64,000 nt of DNA from Cloeon dipterum. Its lineage: Eukaryota > Arthropoda > Insecta > Ephemeroptera > Baetidae. Below the pieces are notes generated by a model. The model was not told where the DNA came from and searched no databases. It worked only from the letters and a program-made list of their open reading frames with translations. Location of the stretch: positions 31,500,545 through 31,564,544 of the forward strand of contig NC_088790.1 in NCBI RefSeq assembly GCF_949628265.1, in the 5' to 3' direction. Each line of letters begins with the position of its first letter. Position 1 is the stretch's first letter. The position numbers and the translations under genes are program-made. This document shows, in pieces, positions 1-57,954 of this stretch.

Positions 1-3000
1 TTGCACCTCGCTCGTAGCAAAAACCATCTGAGGAAGATAACAGGTTAAAAGGGTAATTGACGAAGTTTCTGAGCCCACCAATCGATTCCTGAGGGCCGAA
101 TTAGGTACAGGGGACGTTTTTTCCGACCAAAATGCCCAGCGCGACGTGCGAACCTTTTTTTCCCGCCAAAAACAATTTGAATGCGAGAAGTGCGCATGCG
201 TGAGAGCTGGCTGGATCTGATAAAGAGGTTATTCGTACAGGTGGTCTCTCTAAAAATGCTCTCACGCATGCGCACTTCTCGCATTCAAATTGTTTTGGCG
301 GGAAAAAAGTTCGCACGTCGCGCTGGACATCTACTTTACCTAATTCCACCCTCAGGAATCGATTGGTGAGCTCTGAAGTGTCGTCAAACACCGTCTTTTA
401 ATAAATTACCTGCACAAATCACCGGCTCCCTGAAAATTTCCTGAGTTATTGGGCAAATGAGTTCGTGAGGCACGTTCGAAAGGTCGTCGACAACTCCTAC
501 GTTCTCGTGTTTGAGCCAAAAAATCTGTCGTTCCAACTCTTTAGTGTGCGATTCGTCTTCTAAACGGAAAAACTTTAGTTATAAATAAATCGATTTACTC
601 ATTAATTGGAATTAACCTAATCCGAAGATATTTGTCAAATTTTGGAGCGTGGAATTTAAAATATCGTTGCCGGTGAGGTGCTGGAACCGCGTTGGAGGAA
701 TTATCGGGATGTCGAGCCAGGTGAGCCACCTGGCCACGTCCTTGCTCGTCCATTCCTCCACCCTCTCGCGGTGTCCACGCAAACTTTCTTCTGCCTGGTT
801 TCTGGCCAGCAGATCTTTCGGCATTTCCCAAATTATCACCGATTTGTCCAGAGAAGCTGAATTAGAAATAATTAAATGGAATTGTGTTAGGTTATTTAAT
901 TATATACATGTCGCGACCAAAGATCCGTCTGGGGAAAAAGCACAGCTGGTCACGATGCTTGCGTGCAGCTCCAAAACAAACAGACACTGCCGCTGGAACT
1001 GAAAACACGACGTAAATAATTAATTCAGTCATATTCTGAACATCTCACGTACCACATTCCAAATTCTAGCAGTTTTATCCGTCGCAGCAGAGGCTAGAAG
1101 CTGGCCGGTATGCGAAAACCTAACCGAAGCAACCGTGCCTCCATGTCCGACAAGCGTCTGCGCGATGCAAATTTGGGAGCAGCCATTGGGCACGAACCTC
1201 AGGTCCCAGAGCTTCACCAGAGCGTCGCTGCCACCTGACGCCAGAGTGTACTGGCACCCTGAACAAATATCAGTCTTTAAAATGGCCAAAAATATTTCGT
1301 GTCGCGGAAATTTGGCCAATTATTAAATCGCTCCGAGTCGGCTGATTGGAGTGAAGTTAGCTTTTAGATAGTCTACCACAAGGAACTAACTTCAATCCGA
1401 CTTGTGTGGGTGATGCGGACGGATATGTAAGTGGGCGGGGCGATCGATCGGCCAAATTTCCGCGGCATAAAATCGGAAATTACCATTATTGTCAGTCCTG
1501 GAAGGGGCAAAGTCGCAGGTTTGCACGCCAAGGTCGTGTGCGGCCTCGATCACCTGAATTCCGCATGCCTTGTGACCTTTCGCGCCGACTGCCCAGATTC
1601 TGATAGAACCGACCAGGTCGCCAGTGGCCAGGAGTTTGCTGTCCGGCGTGAATGCCGCAGAGGTCACAGCCTCCGTGTGTCCTTCAATCACTCTAGAACA
1701 ATAATCATGAATAAATTTAACCCACTCTGCAACTTGTTTTGTTCTTACTCCAAAATGGAGCCGTCGGGAATGGTCCAGAGGAGGGCGCGTTCGTCGTCGC
1801 CCCCGGTGACCACGAGTTTTCCGTCCGGAGAAAAGCGGCAGGTGCGCACGCTGGCGCCGCTACTCTGCAGCGGCGGGTTGGCCCTTTGTCCGCTTTCCAC
1901 GTCCCACAGGCTGGCGCTGCCGTCCAGAGAGCACGAGGACAGCTTTTCGCCGTCCGGAGAGAACTCGACTTTGTTCACCGAGTAGCGATGCGCTTCGATT
2001 GGAGAGCTGCCCGTTTCTGAGAAGCGACCGCCTGCGTCCTGCCTCCACAACTTTACGAATTTTTCCCTGAAATTTTTTTTATAATAAATTCATACTCATG
2101 AAAACAAGTGGCTCGCGCCCTTCGGGCCGAAAATAACCGAGAGACTCAAATAAAGGCCGATGTAAAAACAGTTCTCAGGTCACGTGACCTGAGAAAGGTT
2201 GGTGTAGGAAAGGGTGAAAAATCGTCGCCGAGTATTGCTAAATACGCTCGAAATTATTGAAAGAGCATTAAAAATCGGACTCGGAGCGGATCTCAGGTCG
2301 CGGGGTACCCTGAAAAAGGTCGTAAGGGTATACCAGATAAAAGCCCAATTAAATACCTGTCCGATGAGGGGTCGTGGTTTACGATCAGACCAACAGCCGA
2401 ATTTTAAGAAAAATAAAACCATTTTCGCACAGTGAAGCTGAAAAAACGGAAAAAAATTAATTTTAATTTTTGAATTGGCGCGAAAAATCAGAAAATCGGT
2501 TTCTAGACCGACGGCAGTCCTATGCGTGCAACGGAGTCGGTGAGATCCTTTTAGTTTCATTTTTTAAGAAAAAAATCGCGAAATTTCGATTTCCCATGTT
2601 CACCTTATGGAGAAAGTGCAAAAATCACGTATTTCAAAGTTTAAAAATCATCTCCTCCTAGGATTTTGATCGGATTGGCTATTATTTGGTCTTAAAATGT
2701 TCCCAGATAAATTTTGCGTCGATTTTCCTTGGGGTTTGTCGAATTTTTAACCCAATCGCGACACATGGCGACCGGAAGCCGAAAATTGCCGTTAAAACCA
2801 AAATTTCGACTTTTTAAAATAAAATAATTCAACGATTTTAAAATTCTTTCACAAAACTTGCTTCACCTAATGCCTAGCTCAGATAGCTAGGGAGCATATC
2901 TGGGAGAAATTAAAAATCTTTTTGAAAATTTCGATTTTTCCGAAAGTTTGGCAGAAAAAAATTCTTTAAAATTCGAAAAATGTTCCCATTTTGGAAAACT

Positions 3001-5147
3001 AAACACGGACGGACGCGTCCTACTAAGGGGCATCGATTGGTACTAAATTCGACGTCATCCGGCCCATAGGGCCCTACCTGGGCCGCAATAACAAATACAA
3101 ACAAAACGTTTTTTCGACTTTAAAAATTATTAACTCGGCTCCTATTGGTCGCACTGTTAAAAACCAAGGTTCATCAGACTCGCCGTGAAATTCTACCCTT
3201 ATTTCAACCCTTTAACTAGGTATGAATTAAACTAACCCTGTGGCAGCGGCGAGAATGTTGCTTGGGCCTGGGCCGAATTGGCAGAAATTAACGGACACGC
3301 CGCAGTCGATTTTCTGCAGGAGTTTCACATTAGAAGCACTTCGTTCCTCCACTAATTTCCCATGACTAGCGTCTGACGGCTGCACAAAGGAAATTTGAGA
3401 AAAATATTAATTTATTTTCTAGAAATCGTACCAGACAACTTGCTGTTGGTGAAGGCACAAGAATAGAATCGACAGACATGCGTCCACCGACGTTCCAGAT
3501 TTTGACCGTTTTGTCGTTGGAGCCAGAGGACAGGAGCGAACCGTCCCTGGAAAAGCTGCAGCTGGTGACGTACCTGTCGTGACCTTGCAGCACCTTCGCA
3601 CACTTCACGGACGCAACCTAAATACAAAAATTATAATGATTTAAATTCATTTTAATTTAAAAAAACTCACGTCCCACACTCGGAGCGTTTTGTCGAGGCT
3701 TCCTGACGCCAGGTGGGCGCCGCTAGGGTCGAACCGGACGCACAGGACGCTGGACGAGTGCCCAGAGAGGGTCTGCGAGGGCTCCAGAAGCACTCGGCTT
3801 TTGTACACCAACACGTTCCACAAACGCACGACGTGGTCCTGCCCGGAGGTGGCCAGCATAAACACCTTTTTTACTCCTTGCCCTGAAGGTGATCGAGACA
3901 AAAATTGTTATTTCACTTTTCCAGCAATTTCTTGAACAAAATACGGTTTTAAGAATTAAATTATCGTACTAGCTGGTCTAGGCACTGGAGAAAAATCAGC
4001 GGCAGTGACGCCCATGTCGTGGGCCGAGTCCTGAGTGGCCAGCAAGTCTCCGTCTTCGATTTCGTGAACGTGCAGGACGCCCTGGGAGCAGCCGGACGCC
4101 ACCAGCTGCGAGTCCGGGGACGTCGCCAGAGCTTGCACCGTCTCCTCGTGAGCTTTGATCGTTCTATGGAGGTTGAATTGTAGACAAATATTATTTTAAA
4201 TGTGGGATTTTGTGTACTTGACTAGAGAACGGTGAGCTAGGTTCCAGAAGCAGACGGTGCCGTCGTCGCCGGCCGTGACGATGCGCGTCGAGTCCGAAGT
4301 AAAGCGGCAAACCCGCACGGCGTTGCCACTCGGCTGGACGAAGTGGTGGATTTTGCAGCCAGTCTGTTGAAAAACGGGTTAAAATTAATTCTTATATTGG
4401 AAAAAAATTAAATTAAAAAAAAACCAATCCAGGGAATAATTTTTTCTAAGTAGTTTTCTGTGAGTTTCAACTTCCAGAAAATTCAAACAATATTTTAGCT
4501 GAATGGGCATTTAATTATGCATCTTTTAAGACCATAATTAAGGTTCTAGCTTTATTAAAACTCGAGATATTCAAGATTTTGTCAACTCCGGCAACACATT
4601 TCTAGAAATTTCCGGGAAAAGTTCTAGATTTTTCCGCCAAGAACCAGAAAAATCGATGATAAAAAATTTCAAATATGCAGACCACATAATCTAATCTCTC
4701 CTGAAACAGCCCTGTTCACAAAGCGTAAACAATTTTGAAATAAATTATTATGCAAATTTAAATAATTGTTTCCGTGCGAATTATTAATTAATTAACGTGC
4801 TTACTCTGATGTTCCACAAGACGGTGCATCCGTCAATGGAGGAAGTGGCGAGCATGGTGCCCTGCGGCGAGAATCGGGCGTCCGTGACGCCGTACGTGTG
4901 GTGTCCGATGGGCGAAAAAGCGACCTCCCTGTAGCCGTGCCCAGGGTGCCACTCCCAAGCGCGCACCGACTTGTCGCTGTGCGACAATAACAAAAACAAA
5001 GAGTCATGCACCTACACGAATGGTATTCAGCGTTAATCACCTTGACCCTGTGGCCAGGGTGAAGTTTTTGCCAAAGTCGCAGAAGGTGACATCGCTCGAG
5101 TGCGCCCTGATCGTCTGCATTGCCGCCAACGACGCTGCTGCAGCCAT
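1..5147 (-). CDS. Wdsub1: WDSUB1-like protein: double WD40 + SAM + U-box (partial, 3' end off window)
   Basis: Predicted ubiquitin E3 ligase (U-box) with WD40 and SAM protein-binding domains. Fourteen exons join in phase: 5147-5041, 4976-4805, 4363-4218, 4163-3970, 3882-3671, 3617-3432, 3379-3237, 2066-1749, 1692-1484, 1258-1053, 998-908, 856-617, 559-410, 27-1. The start ATG at 5147 is followed by a run of Ala residues. WD40 blades fill about residues 10-680, with many repeats ending in D-K-(S/T)-V-x-x-W. The SAM domain (about 700-745) reads EWTSKDVARWLTWL. The U-box begins VPHELICPITQEIF and continues after an intron as ADGFCYERGA at the window edge. About 800 residues are visible. Known single-propeller WDSUB1 proteins are near 480, and the excess is a second WD40 region with matching exon structure (see findings). 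Domain order makes the family call firm; the exact exon 6/7 boundary is the least certain. Confidence 0.88.
46..400 (-). mobile_element. Foldback MITE family A, copy 1
   Basis: Near-palindromic element of about 355 bp inside the last visible intron of the WDSUB1-like gene. Its arms carry the family A signature CCAATCGATTCCTGAGGG and a central TGCGCATGCG palindrome on each side (about 191-200 and 263-274). The left terminus is degraded relative to the family end AAAGACCGTCTTTGACG. The strand given is the orientation of the unpaired centre relative to copies 3, 4, 5 and 7. Confidence 0.9.
1292..1474. mobile_element. Short palindromic repeat family B, copy 1
   Basis: Inverted repeat in a WDSUB1 intron. 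The ends are GTCGCGGAAATTTGGCC and its complement, with an internal GTGGGCGGGG GC box. Related copies lie at 51240-51420 and 52340-52478. Together with splice signals it makes up almost all of the 225-bp intron 1259-1483. Confidence 0.75.
2180..3230. repeat. Dispersed repeat family G, copy 1
   Basis: Most of the 1.17-kb WDSUB1 intron 2067-3236 is a dispersed repeat. It shares blocks with 42660-43560 (the motif GATTTTGATCGGATTGGCT and the phrase TTAATAACTCGGCTCC) and with 27690-28060 and, in reverse, 15090-16240. No coding capacity is visible; the open frames across it are interrupted and not conserved between copies. Confidence 0.75.
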
Positions 5148-6291: not shown

Positions 6292-6675
6292 TAAAGGCCT
6301 TCTTTGACGACGTTTCCGAGCCCACCAATCGATTCCTGAGGGTCGAATTAGGTAATGTGGATATTTTATCCGTTAAAAAAGTGCAGCGTGACGTGCGAAC
6401 TTTTTTCCCGCCAAAACAGTATGAACGTAATTGCAAGAAATGCGCATGCGTGAGGGATGACAAAGAAGTCATTCGTGCAGGCGGTCTCTCTGCAAGTGCT
6501 CAAACCAGCTCTCACGCATGCGCACTTCTCGCAAATACGTTCATATCGTTTTTTGGCGGGAAAAAAAGTTCGCACCTAGCGCTGCACTTTTTGGTCGGAA
6601 AAAACGTCCATTCTACCTAATTCGACCCTCAGGAATCGATTGGTGAGCTCAGAAACTTCGTAAAAGACGGTCTTC
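6292..6675 (-). mobile_element. Foldback MITE family A, copy 2
   Basis: Complete copy of about 384 bp. The left end reads AAAGGCCTTCTTTGACG, the right end mirrors it, both arms carry CCAATCGATTCCTGAGGG, and two GCGCATGCG palindromes flank a centre of about 55 nt in the same orientation as copies 1 and 6. Confidence 0.92.
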
Positions 6676-12700: not shown

Positions 12701-13020
12701 TAGTGTGCTATTTTTAGACGCGCGCGTCTAATTAAAACCCGCGTGTGCACTGGATCCAGCAGCAGAAGAAGACACCCCAAAGAGCTACTGTTACGCACGG
12801 ATACTGCGTGAATCTCATAATACAAAAATTCTTCGAAAGAAACTGCAAAAAGATCCGTTTATTTATTTCTACAACAGTTTCTCCGTCATGAAGTCATAAT
12901 TATATGCACCGTTGAATGAATCACTAATTTATTTTTATTTTTGGAGCAAACTAATTCCTTTTTTGAGACACATTTCAAGAACAAAAAGTCAGAGTCACAT
13001 TTAATTTTAAGAATTGAATA

Positions 13021-13371
13021 AAAGACGGTCTTTGACGCAGTTTCTGAGCTCACCAATCGATTCCTGAGGGTCGAATTAGGTAAAATTGATATTTTTTCCG
13101 TTAAAAAAGTGCAGCGCAACGTGCGAACTTTTTTCCCGCCAAAACAATATGAATGCGAGAAGTGCGCATGCGTCACAGCTGGTTTGAGCATTATTTGCAG
13201 TAAGACCGCGTCTATACGAATGACTTGTTTGTCGGATCCAGCCAATTCTCACGCATGCGCACTTCTCGCATTCATTTGTTTTGGCGGGAAAAAATTCTTC
13301 TCGGAAAATACATCCATATTACCTAATTCGACCCCTTGATGGGCTCAGAAACTGCGTCAAAGACGGTTTTT
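13021..13371 (+). mobile_element. Foldback MITE family A, copy 3
   Basis: Copy of about 350 bp starting AAAGACGGTCTTTGACGC. The right arm has lost about 12 nt around the CAGGAATCGATT segment near 13333, so this copy is slightly deleted. The centre has the same orientation as copies 4, 5 and 7. Confidence 0.9.
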
Positions 13372-18523: not shown

Positions 18524-18906
18524 AAAGACAGTCTTTGACGAGGTTTCTGAGCACACCAATCGATTCCTGAGGGTCGAATTAGGTGAAGTAGATGTTTTAT
18601 TCTGACCATAAAGTGCAGCGCAAGGTGCGAACTTTTTTTCCCGCCAAAAAACGATATGAACGTATTTGCGGGAAGTGCGCATGCGTCAGAGCTGGTTTGA
18701 GCACTTGCAGAGAGACCACCTGAACGAATGACTTCTTTGTCACATCCAGCCAGCACCCACGCATGCGCAGTTCTCGCAAATACGCTCAAATTGTTTTGGC
18801 GGGAAAAAAGTTCGCACGTTTTTTTAACGGAAAAAACATTCACTGTACCTAATTCGAACCTCAGGAATCGATTGGTGAGCTCAGAAACTTCGCCAAATAA
18901 GTCTTT
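18524..18906 (+). mobile_element. Foldback MITE family A, copy 4
   Basis: Copy of about 383 bp. The left end AAAGACAGTCTTTGACG is near the family form; the right end is eroded (CCAAATAAGTCTTT). Both CCAATCGATTCCTGAGG segments and both GCGCATGCG or CGCATGCGC palindromes are present. Confidence 0.9.
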
Positions 18907-22341: not shown

Positions 22342-25300
22342 TCACTCCAATTTGCTCCGCTGCTGGCCGGTGAGCAGGCCGTACTGGTGTCCGTTGACCT
22401 TGTCCTCCTGTCCGAGCTTGTCGTACTTGACGCCGTTGGCCGCCGAGTGGACGCGGGCCGGCACGTTGGCGGCCGAGGCGCCCTTGCCGCCGTCCGAGAG
22501 GTACGACTTGTGGAAGAACCTGGCGAACAGCATGGCGTAGCTCAGGTACATGGTGAACGAGAGCTTGATGTTGGTCAGGCTGATGTGGCACTCTTCGCCG
22601 CTCTGCAGGTACTGGTAGGCCCAGTAGTTGACCAGACAGCCGACCACCATCTGCGACAGCTGCGACGCCGTGATGAACATGGCGAACTGCTTGGGCGGCC
22701 GGTAGCCCATGGCCCGCAGCGCGTAGTACGTGTACATGATCGAGTGCACGATGTAGTTCATCACGACGTACCAGCGCGCCGACGACGTGTACTCGGCGTA
22801 CGAGAACCAGCTGTACAGCAGCACCGTGATGTGGTGGTACCAGTGCAGGAAGATGAGCGGCTGCTTGCGCAGCACGATGAAAACCGTGTCGCCCAGCTCG
22901 GGCAGCTTCGACAGCACGAACATCCACGTCCAGAAGCCGCTCACCTTGTCGTGAAGGATGTAACTGCAAACAGAAAAGGCAAAATTGTAATTAGTAGAGA
23001 CTCGCATGCGTTTGTTTGTTTGTTTCTCTAACTGTTTTTTCTTCTTTTCAGATTTGGAGACGCGGCAGTTTGAGCCAAATTTTAACCAGGAGGCGGAGAA
23101 AATTAATTTTAACGGAGAGAATTTTGATTTTAATCAGATTTTGCCAGAATTTCGGACCGGGAGCAAATCTATAATTTAAAGACCGTCTTTGAAGAAGTTT
23201 CTGAGCACACCAATCGATTCCTGAGGGTCGAATTAGTTAAATTAGACATTTTTTCCGTTAAAAAAGTGCAGCGCGACGTGCGAATTTTTTTCCCGCCAAA
23301 ACAAAATGAATGCGAGAACTGCACATGCGTGAGAGCTGGTTTGAGCACTTGCAGTGAGACCACCTCTACGAATGACTACATTGTCAGATCCAGCCAGCTC
23401 TAACGCATGCGCAGATCTCGCATTCATATTGGTTTTGGCGGGAAAAAAGTTCGCACGTCGCGCTGCACTTTTTTAACGGAAAAACGTCCATTTTAACTAA
23501 TTCGACCCTCAGGAATCGAATAGTGGGCTCAGAAAAGTCGTTAAAGACGGTCTTTAAATTGTTCATGATTAATTTCGGGTTGATTCATCAAATAGAATGT
23601 TAATCAGTTTGAGTTAAAATTGGATATTGTTGTTAAGAATTTTGTCCCGATATCGGACTTAATTTTGTTTGAGGTCCAAGTGTCCTTTATACCGATTTTA
23701 TAAAAATTTAGCCTCTTTCAGGTCAATTTTCTGTATAAAATATCACGTTATTGCAATTTATTATTAAAAAATTGTTAATTGAGTCAGAATTTCGAACAAA
23801 ATCCAAATGAAAATTTGATTTTTGGGACAGATCTTTACATTTTCGAGAAAATGAGTAAAAATCTTATTTTTATTCCCTTTATTACAACACTTTTAAATGT
23901 TTACCAAAGAATAAGCTTTGTCTTTGGAATGTTATTTCGGTTTTCTTACGAAATTCAGATTTAAGTTATTTCTAGAGTAATAGTTGTGACATAAAAAATA
24001 TTGTTACATTTTAATCAAATAAACGTGCGTGTGTTACTGTTGATATTTTACTTTAAAAATCTTCAATTTATTTACAAAATTAATTCAAAACGAGTTACGA
24101 CACCAAATTAATTTTTATTTTTGAAAATTGAGCGTCTAAAAACAGGTTACCCCGATTTTATTATTAGCGCAAACAAACGGCTGGAAAATCCCACCAGTTT
24201 TGGGGTTTCCTTTGAAAAAATAAAAAAAATCACACTTTGCACCTAACAATAGACAGAGCTTAAACAAATGCTTAAAATGAAAGTTTCTTAGCGATACAGA
24301 GTGTTTCTCCGGATTTTAGTTCCTAATTAAAGAGTAAAGTAAAAGAAAGTACCGTCACACATTTAAACAGGATAATTCTTTAAAAAGTGCCAAATCTTTT
24401 TTTTAAATTGAAGTCTCCAATAGTCATGCCAATGAAGTAAAATATAAAAAGGGACGGTTAAGGGAAAACTGATTAAAATTTTGGGTGTCAAATTTCAACA
24501 ACAGAATTTCTCACTCTAAAAGCTAATATTTTTCCACGAATTGCCGTCAGAATACGGAGAAAAAAAGCAAATTGCTGCATATGTGCTTGTCGGGGCCGCG
24601 ACTCACTCGGCTTAACGAGTCGTGACGTCAACTATCTGATAACGAGGATTTCGGAGACAAACCAAAAGAACTTTTAAGTCTTCGCCACGCATTCCTCACG
24701 TGCCACATTAACGTCACCTTACAAGGCCGGTAGAATAAATAAATCTTTTTTAATTGAAACCAAATTGCATCTCATTACAGTGCGCGGTGTTTTTATTTTA
24801 AGGGCCGCGCCCGCCCGCTCGTGTTGCTCGCGGCAGGGTGGCTCCGAAATTTGTGTCAAGTGCGCTGCCCATCTTTTTTCATTAAGCCACTTGAGCGGCG
24901 CTCGTTATCTCGCTCGAAAAAGAAAAATTAATCACCCTCCCTCGGCTGGACGGACAGCCTGGCTGCTTGGCTCGCGAATCGGATTATCTGCGGATGAGTC
25001 AGCGCCCAAGAGTGCAAGCGTTCACGCAGACGAGATATAATTGTCCCGCATTCACTCAAATGAACAAAATTACTTTGTTTCGAGCACGAGACACCAGTGA
25101 GAGTCTGGAGAAAAAGATTTAACATTTTTTTTTCAGGATTTAAACCCTGAAAATCTAGCAAAATGAAATCACTGCAAAAAATGTTTTATTTTTAAATAAA
25201 TTTCCGGCTTGCTTGTGTTTTTTGCTTAATTCTAATTCCTCATTACACAAATGTAAGGTTAAAATATCTTCCAGTGAATTAAAAAATGAATAATTCCCTC

Positions 25301-54499: not shown

Positions 54500-56879
<2,380 letters not shown>

Positions 56880-57954
56880 TGTGTGTGTGTGTGTGTGTGC
56901 GCCTCGGGTTGCTATACTGTCGTGACGCGCGGATCGTTGTTTCGGTTCGTTCGGGCCCGAATCTGACCTCCGAACTCGTGAGACGAGATTGGCCTGACTC
57001 ACGTTCGACCAGTTCGTGCCAATTATCCGAGCCGAAATAATATTAAATCTCTGCCGGCCGGAGACGAGACGAGAACAGAAGCAGAATAAAAAGCAGCCGG
57101 GCGCTTTAAAAGGAATGGTTCGAGTGCCGCGCGTACAGCGCTGAGAAAAATAATGTAATCGATGATTACGCATGGCTAAGGTCGCCCTTCAGAGGGGAAA
57201 TATTTTGATAAGAATGTCGCTGCTTTGCTGCAGAGGCACGAGCAGCTATTAAAAATAATTATTTGACGTCTAATGGGTTTATTTTTAAAAAGGTTCCGAG
57301 GATTTTAAAATTAGATAATTTCTGGTCTCGTCTAAATTACGTTATATTTCATAAATATTTTATTTTTCCAATTTTATATTCTTTTAAATTATTAAAAAGG
57401 TTTAAAGACTGTCTTTGACGAGGTTTCTGAGCACACCAATCGATTCCTGAGGGTCGAATTAGGTAAAATGGATGTTTTTTCCGTTAAAAAAGGCCAGCGC
57501 GACGTGCGAACTTTTTTCCCGCCAAAACAATTTGAACTGCGCATGCGTGAGAGCTGGTTTGAGCACTTGCAGAGAGACCGCAGCTGTACGAATGACTTCT
57601 TTGTCAGATTCATCCAGCTCTGACGCATGCGCACTTCTCGCATTCAAATTGTTTTGGCGGCAAAAAAGTTCGCACGTCGCGCTTCACTTTTTTAACGGAA
57701 AAAAATCCATTTGAACTAATTCGACCCTCAGGAATCGATTGGTGGGCTCAGAAACATCCTCAGAGACCGTCTTTTTAAACTTTTTTAAGTTTGAAAGTGA
57801 TCTAATTATTAAATCTGAGTAGATACAATTAAATACACGTCTTTAGTAGGAGAATTATTTAAAAATTAGTTAATTATTTTATTGTAAAACAGTCCAATTG
57901 TACAGAATAATTTTCTCACATCCTCAGTCTTTTGCACTGGATTTCCATTCGCCG
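56880..57954. other. Region between xylulose reductase and the TSR gene
   Basis: A (GT)n run at 56880-56900 directly abuts the reductase ATG and is followed by its GC-richer promoter side to about 57240. Family A copy 7 follows, then a minus-strand AATAAA at 57883-57878 for the TSR gene. Confidence 0.55.
57404..57774 (+). mobile_element. Foldback MITE family A, copy 7
   Basis: 371 bp with ends AAAGACTGTCTTTGACG and AGAGACCGTCTTT. The left arm lacks about 9 nt beside the palindrome (TTTGAACTGCGCATGCG). Centre orientation as in copies 3, 4 and 5. Confidence 0.92.

Follow-up and report, generated by a model that had tools for sequence, protein, structure and literature searches.

We analysed a 64,000-nucleotide stretch of the genome of Cloeon dipterum (Insecta; Ephemeroptera; Baetidae; NCBI RefSeq assembly GCF_949628265.1, contig NC_088790.1, positions 31,500,545 to 31,564,544 of the forward strand), hereafter the window, whose left end carries a gene resembling that of the U-box ligase WDSUB1 on the minus strand. 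The gene model was rebuilt from the window sequence and the flanking contig, and its product is a conceptual translation: conceptual splicing joins 14 exons across 13 GT–AG introns into 842 codons that run without a stop or frameshift. The start codon lies at window position 5147, with a TAA in frame seven codons before the ATG, and the gene ends at L009:9818, 128 bases past the left edge. An earlier note on this DNA, made from its letters alone, had placed the gene at 1..5147; these coordinates are right within the window, but the gene continues for 128 bases and its U-box is complete only outside.

The predicted product consists, in order, of a first propeller (residues ~10–324), a 34-residue linker, a second propeller (residues ~359–675), a SAM-like region and a U-box. 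Alignment and inspection by eye revealed two sets of seven WD40 blades, fourteen in all; the Pfam WD40 profile scored 326.6 bits in total, with 10 stretches passing individually, and the WD40 profile of Prp19 scored 272.7 bits, below its cut-off of 320. A leading strand precedes blade 1 in each half, which fits two propellers that would close separately. The C-terminal U-box, divided between two exons, matched PF04564 (E 3.1e-15; 56.5 bits, cut-off 21.4). The order WD40–SAM–U-box is that of WDSUB1, with the SAM match remaining below cut-off (for SAM_3, E 0.053 and 13.9 bits, cut-off 22.6). Because the protein has fourteen blades in two sets of seven, and not the seven WD40 repeats (one propeller) of canonical WDSUB1, we named it WDSUB1-like. 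A U-box family search of the genome returned four places, this gene not among them, and no solved structure named WDSUB1 was present among the matches listed (60 of 696, and 9 of 9 in a second listing). Scanning prokaryote contigs with the C-terminal part gave no match; the same scan of viral contigs gave one weak locus, L033. Two families characteristic of insects occur in the genome, in keeping with its origin: 7tm_6, with 5 matches above cut-off, and PBP_GOBP, with a single match interrupted by two stops.

As the earlier note had read it, two successive WD40 regions with the quoted motifs match in order within one conceptual product, and the half-against-half residue alignment that it proposed as a check gave 117 identities over 308 columns (38%). 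With blade borders drawn by hand, the alignment in view, the in-order pairing of blades was the best of 5040 pairings (508.5; next 489.5; mean 272, s.d. 50), and the six rotations scored 192–261. The nearest blade lay in the opposite half for 13 of the 14 blades, blade 4 of half 2 showing a rounded-score tie with blade 7 of its own half, and it was in register for 11 of the 14, the misses being blade 4 of half 2 and, in half 1, blades 1 and 7. A purpose-written script for spliced alignment then placed the protein of each half on the unannotated DNA of the other, scoring 444 for half 1 on half 2 DNA and 448 for the reverse, compared with 266 (L036) and 244 (L045, that is, C5:2809314) for the best of 20 other WD40 loci, which were hand-picked from genome search matches and form a subset of the genome's WD40 genes (150 of 515 candidates scored). 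Each half is thus the other's best partner, at ~1.7–1.8 times the score of the next of the 20 loci.

The introns follow the same pattern. Their phases are, in order, 2, 0, 2, 1 and 0 in half 1, 0 in the linker, and 2, 2, 1, 0, 1, 1 and 1 thereafter. Introns 1 and 7, both phase 2, fall at an identical alignment column, as do introns 3 and 8, also both phase 2; two further pairs, introns 4 and 9 (phase 1) and introns 5 and 10 (phase 0), agree in phase. The claim that four introns share both place and phase therefore held for phase in all four and for column in two, the other two being off by one or two codons, whereas the claim that exons 2 and 3 of half 1 form one exon in half 2 (exon 8) stood as made. 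Intron 2 in half 1 and intron 11 (phase 1, blade 7) in half 2 lack partners. Spliced alignment recovered ten introns, all with the phase of the model and seven with both ends as in the model; the remaining three differed at one end (in half 1, 5046 rather than 5040 and 3877 rather than 3883; in half 2, 1420 rather than 1483). When five introns per half were placed at random in 400,000 trials, three in-phase matches within two codons arose in 42 trials and four in none; the analytic chance of four is ~5e-7 under a model that ignores any preference of introns for certain WD40 blade sites. Among the 20 control loci, whose introns are alignment predictions only, none had a predicted in-phase intron within two residues of the five of half 1, and with half 2 as query two loci had one matching intron each (L042 at intron 11, L040 near intron 10) and none had two.

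From the sequence, we consider it very probable that this is a single gene encoding a two-propeller WDSUB1-like U-box protein whose propellers arose by duplication. A fusion joining WDSUB1 to an unrelated WD40 gene would also place two propellers in one chain, and since WD40 propellers are common and mutually similar, and the best single-exon match of half 2 is another locus, such an origin deserves weighing. We nevertheless regard it as very unlikely, given the margin of the halves over the next of the 20 loci in both directions, the in-register pairing of blades, and the four shared introns as opposed to none or one in each control locus.

Several observations weigh against the duplication reading or against the naming of its product. 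In the exon-by-exon genome search, the top non-self match of half 1 was half 2 (36%, E 7.3e-18), but that of half 2 was C5:2809314 (E 1.1e-13), behind which the pieces of half 1 followed at E 6.1e-7, 1.3e-5 and 5.2e-4; spliced alignment was adopted because exons split the score in such a search. A comparison of summed high-scoring segment pairs ranked half 1 DNA first for half 2 (196.7) but half 2 DNA only seventh among non-self loci for half 1 (165.5, best 182.8); swamped by short chance matches, it was dropped and replaced by spliced alignment. When half 2 was rotated by a single blade in either direction, linear alignment still gave 412 and 386, compared with 504 unrotated, since most blades remain collinear. 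Two of the four intron pairs are near-matches, introns 4 and 9 being separated by two columns where the alignment is gapped and introns 5 and 10 by one codon. At the C terminus, the U-box match stops at profile position 65 of 73 (from position 1), so the end of the final exon may be wrong, and the SAM-like region between WD40 and U-box reached only E 4.1e-4 and 20.7 bits against SAM_PNT, under the cut-off of 24. Last, the name WDSUB1-like reflects domain content and order, and orthology to animal WDSUB1 is putative.

The same DNA could also be parsed as two adjacent genes, a propeller-only gene (exons 1–7) followed by a separate WDSUB1-like gene from exon 8. Intron 7 is the longest of the 13 (1170 bp), its retention would end translation at 389 amino acids, five of its ATGs start frames that stay open for 15 codons or more, four of these ATGs (3033, 2597, 2560 and 2422) having a possible phase-2 donor, and it contains a single ATTAAA, at 2467. 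Its length, however, reflects its filling by a dispersed repeat, which accounts for ~1.07 kb (2128–3194) and holds the candidate ATGs; a product started there would lack the first strands of propeller 2. These strands are borne by exon 7, upstream of intron 7, so that a split at this point would break a blade. Moreover, no Met occurs between residues 324 and 673, propeller 2 running through to the first Met at 673, the open frame of exon 7 (3227–3406) has no ATG, and AATAAA is absent from intron 7 and occurs several times ~300 bases past the stop codon. We therefore see only a slim chance of two genes and retain a single gene. A transcript retaining intron 7 may nonetheless yield the 389-amino-acid protein, which would have one propeller and no ligase end. 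The repeat itself has many diverged genomic copies (70–88% identical over the matched parts; at least 60 matches, 40 of 992 candidates scored) and carries a 126-codon open frame.

An assembly artefact or a decayed gene appears extremely improbable. Close to the 3′ end, a recent inverted duplication has produced another copy of the last exon, indicating that the region has been rearranged; yet 62% of the aligned residues differ between the halves, which is not what a misassembled repeat would give, and the uninterrupted 842-codon frame is not that of a decayed gene.

The inverted duplication lies ~16 kb away and consists of several pieces (85–98% identical by piece) that relate L034 ~68–4500 (C5:31480667-31485099) to L009 and the left end of the window. 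Both the last U-box exon and a fold-back element of intron 13 recur in it; other exons of the WDSUB1-like gene were not found there. This palindromic element of ~360 bp, resembling a miniature inverted-repeat transposable element, occupies window positions ~55–395, with further copies at ~6303–6674, 13019–13297, 18524–18896, 23178–23555, 55676–56053 and 57404–57775, and is abundant in the genome (at least 80 matches, 40 of 1594 candidates scored). Intron 9 (window 1262–1480) holds a small inverted-repeat element with many diverged genomic copies (at least 69 matches, its own copy counted). The coordinates of the gene are given in Table 1.

Table 1 Exons of the WDSUB1-like gene and its enlarged intron, in order of transcription (window positions).
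Feature	Position	Strand	Basis
Exon 1: start codon, leading strand and beginning of blade 1 of propeller 1; phase 2 after	5041..5147	-	gene model
Exon 2: phase 0 after; its intron without partner in half 2	4805..4976	-	intron recovered from the protein of the other half
Exon 3: phase 2 after	4218..4363	-	gene model, spliced alignment
Exon 4: phase 1 after	3970..4163	-	spliced alignment puts the acceptor of the next intron 6 bases off
Exon 5: phase 0 after	3671..3882	-	gene model, spliced alignment
Exon 6: blade 7 of propeller 1, first part of linker; phase 0 after	3432..3617	-	gene model
Exon 7: remaining linker, beginning of propeller 2; counterpart of exon 1; phase 2 after	3237..3379	-	gene model, half–half alignment
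Intron 7: enlarged by dispersed repeat (~2128-3194)	2067..3236	-	repeat search
Exon 8: counterpart of exons 2 and 3; phase 2 after	1749..2066	-	gene model, half–half and spliced alignments
Exon 9: counterpart of exon 4; phase 1 after	1484..1692	-	spliced alignment has intron start 1420, model 1483
Exon 10: counterpart of exon 5; phase 0 after	1053..1258	-	gene model, spliced alignment
Exon 11: most of blade 7 of propeller 2; phase 1 after; its intron without partner in half 1	908..998	-	gene model, spliced alignment
Exon 12: end of blade 7 and SAM-like region	617..856	-	gene model, Pfam
Exon 13: SAM-like region ends, U-box begins	410..559	-	gene model, Pfam
Exon 14: remaining U-box and stop codon	1..27 and 128 bases outside the window (L009:9818-9945)	-	gene model

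The single-gene model and the paired introns allow us to propose how the two-propeller form may have arisen. We suggest a tandem copying of the exons that encode a single seven-bladed propeller, introns included, either within the gene or through tandem duplication of the whole gene and subsequent fusion, in which case the first copy would have lost its SAM/U-box end. The earlier proposal of a segmental exon duplication giving a two-propeller E3 ubiquitin ligase is partly supported, as to one gene, a duplicated propeller, a U-box and copied introns; its exon-duplication route is one of the two possible ones, and the two substrate-recognition surfaces that it raised are conjectural. The linker has a GC content at third codon positions of 0.26, compared with 0.77 and 0.67 for the halves and the minimum among 809 windows each 34 codons long, a weak hint that would suit a linker derived from non-coding DNA. 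In the resulting protein, both propellers would fold and the U-box would recruit a ubiquitin-conjugating enzyme (E2); propeller 2, which adjoins the SAM/U-box end, might keep the ancestral partner, and propeller 1 might add a further surface on which a substrate, adaptor or scaffold could dock, a role for which we would put the chances at roughly even.

How novel this form is depends on its age and spread. The two-propeller form may be old and widespread in insects or arthropods, and hence the ordinary ortholog there, which would be compatible with the duplication and would bear on novelty; we find the balance on this point close to equal. The halves are just 38% identical and each has introns missing from the other, as an old form would. 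The published survey of animal U-box ligases, in its available part, spans residues 271–472 of human WDSUB1 in its alignment, mostly the final repeat, SAM and U-box, which makes it blind to a second propeller, and it is silent on one in insects (PMC3087547). On the other side, no description of a two-propeller WDSUB1 was found in those parts of the open-access literature on WDSUB1, including that on insects, that were available. A lineage-specific two-propeller WDSUB1, in which a new N-terminal propeller lets one U-box serve two substrates or bridge substrate and scaffold, is a doubtful reading. What is well supported by the predicted protein is a variant of a known ligase type, with novelty hinging on the age and spread of the form.

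Little is known of WDSUB1 function, and a two-propeller form, if true, would be well suited to testing whether the WD40 region selects substrates. The gene is also a clear case of domain duplication recorded by intron positions. According to the survey, in the part available, WDSUB1 comprises seven WD40 repeats, SAM and U-box, in agreement with the single propeller that the earlier note had stated, is the animal U-box ligase most prone to loss, and was not found in Drosophila or the examined nematodes but occurs in certain other insects (PMC3087547). Vertebrate WDSUB1 is a binding partner of WHRN and increases the ubiquitination of USH2A, which makes scaffold-directed substrate choice a reasonable model that might extend to the present protein (PMC10238197, available part). 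A silkworm WD40 survey lists a class with F-box and U-box domains, the name WDSUB not occurring in the available main text (PMC5855749).

Among known systems, canonical WDSUB1 is the closest in layout, with the same WD40–SAM-like–U-box order and seven blades immediately ahead of the SAM-like region (PMC3087547). The protein described here differs in its fourteen blades in two sets instead of seven, and in a SAM match under cut-off. PRP19 is likewise a U-box protein with seven WD40 repeats (PMC3087547), but its U-box is N-terminal and it has one propeller. Tandem (class-3) coronins share the presence of two WD40 propeller domains per chain and have been explained by tandem gene copying and fusion, an event placed in the eukaryote ancestor and thus very old (PMC3203266, available part). 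Unlike the WDSUB1-like protein, they belong to an actin-related family. To our knowledge, coronins have neither a SAM domain nor a U-box. On the doubtful lineage-specific reading, the Cloeon gene would encode an E3 ligase that followed the tandem-coronin route.

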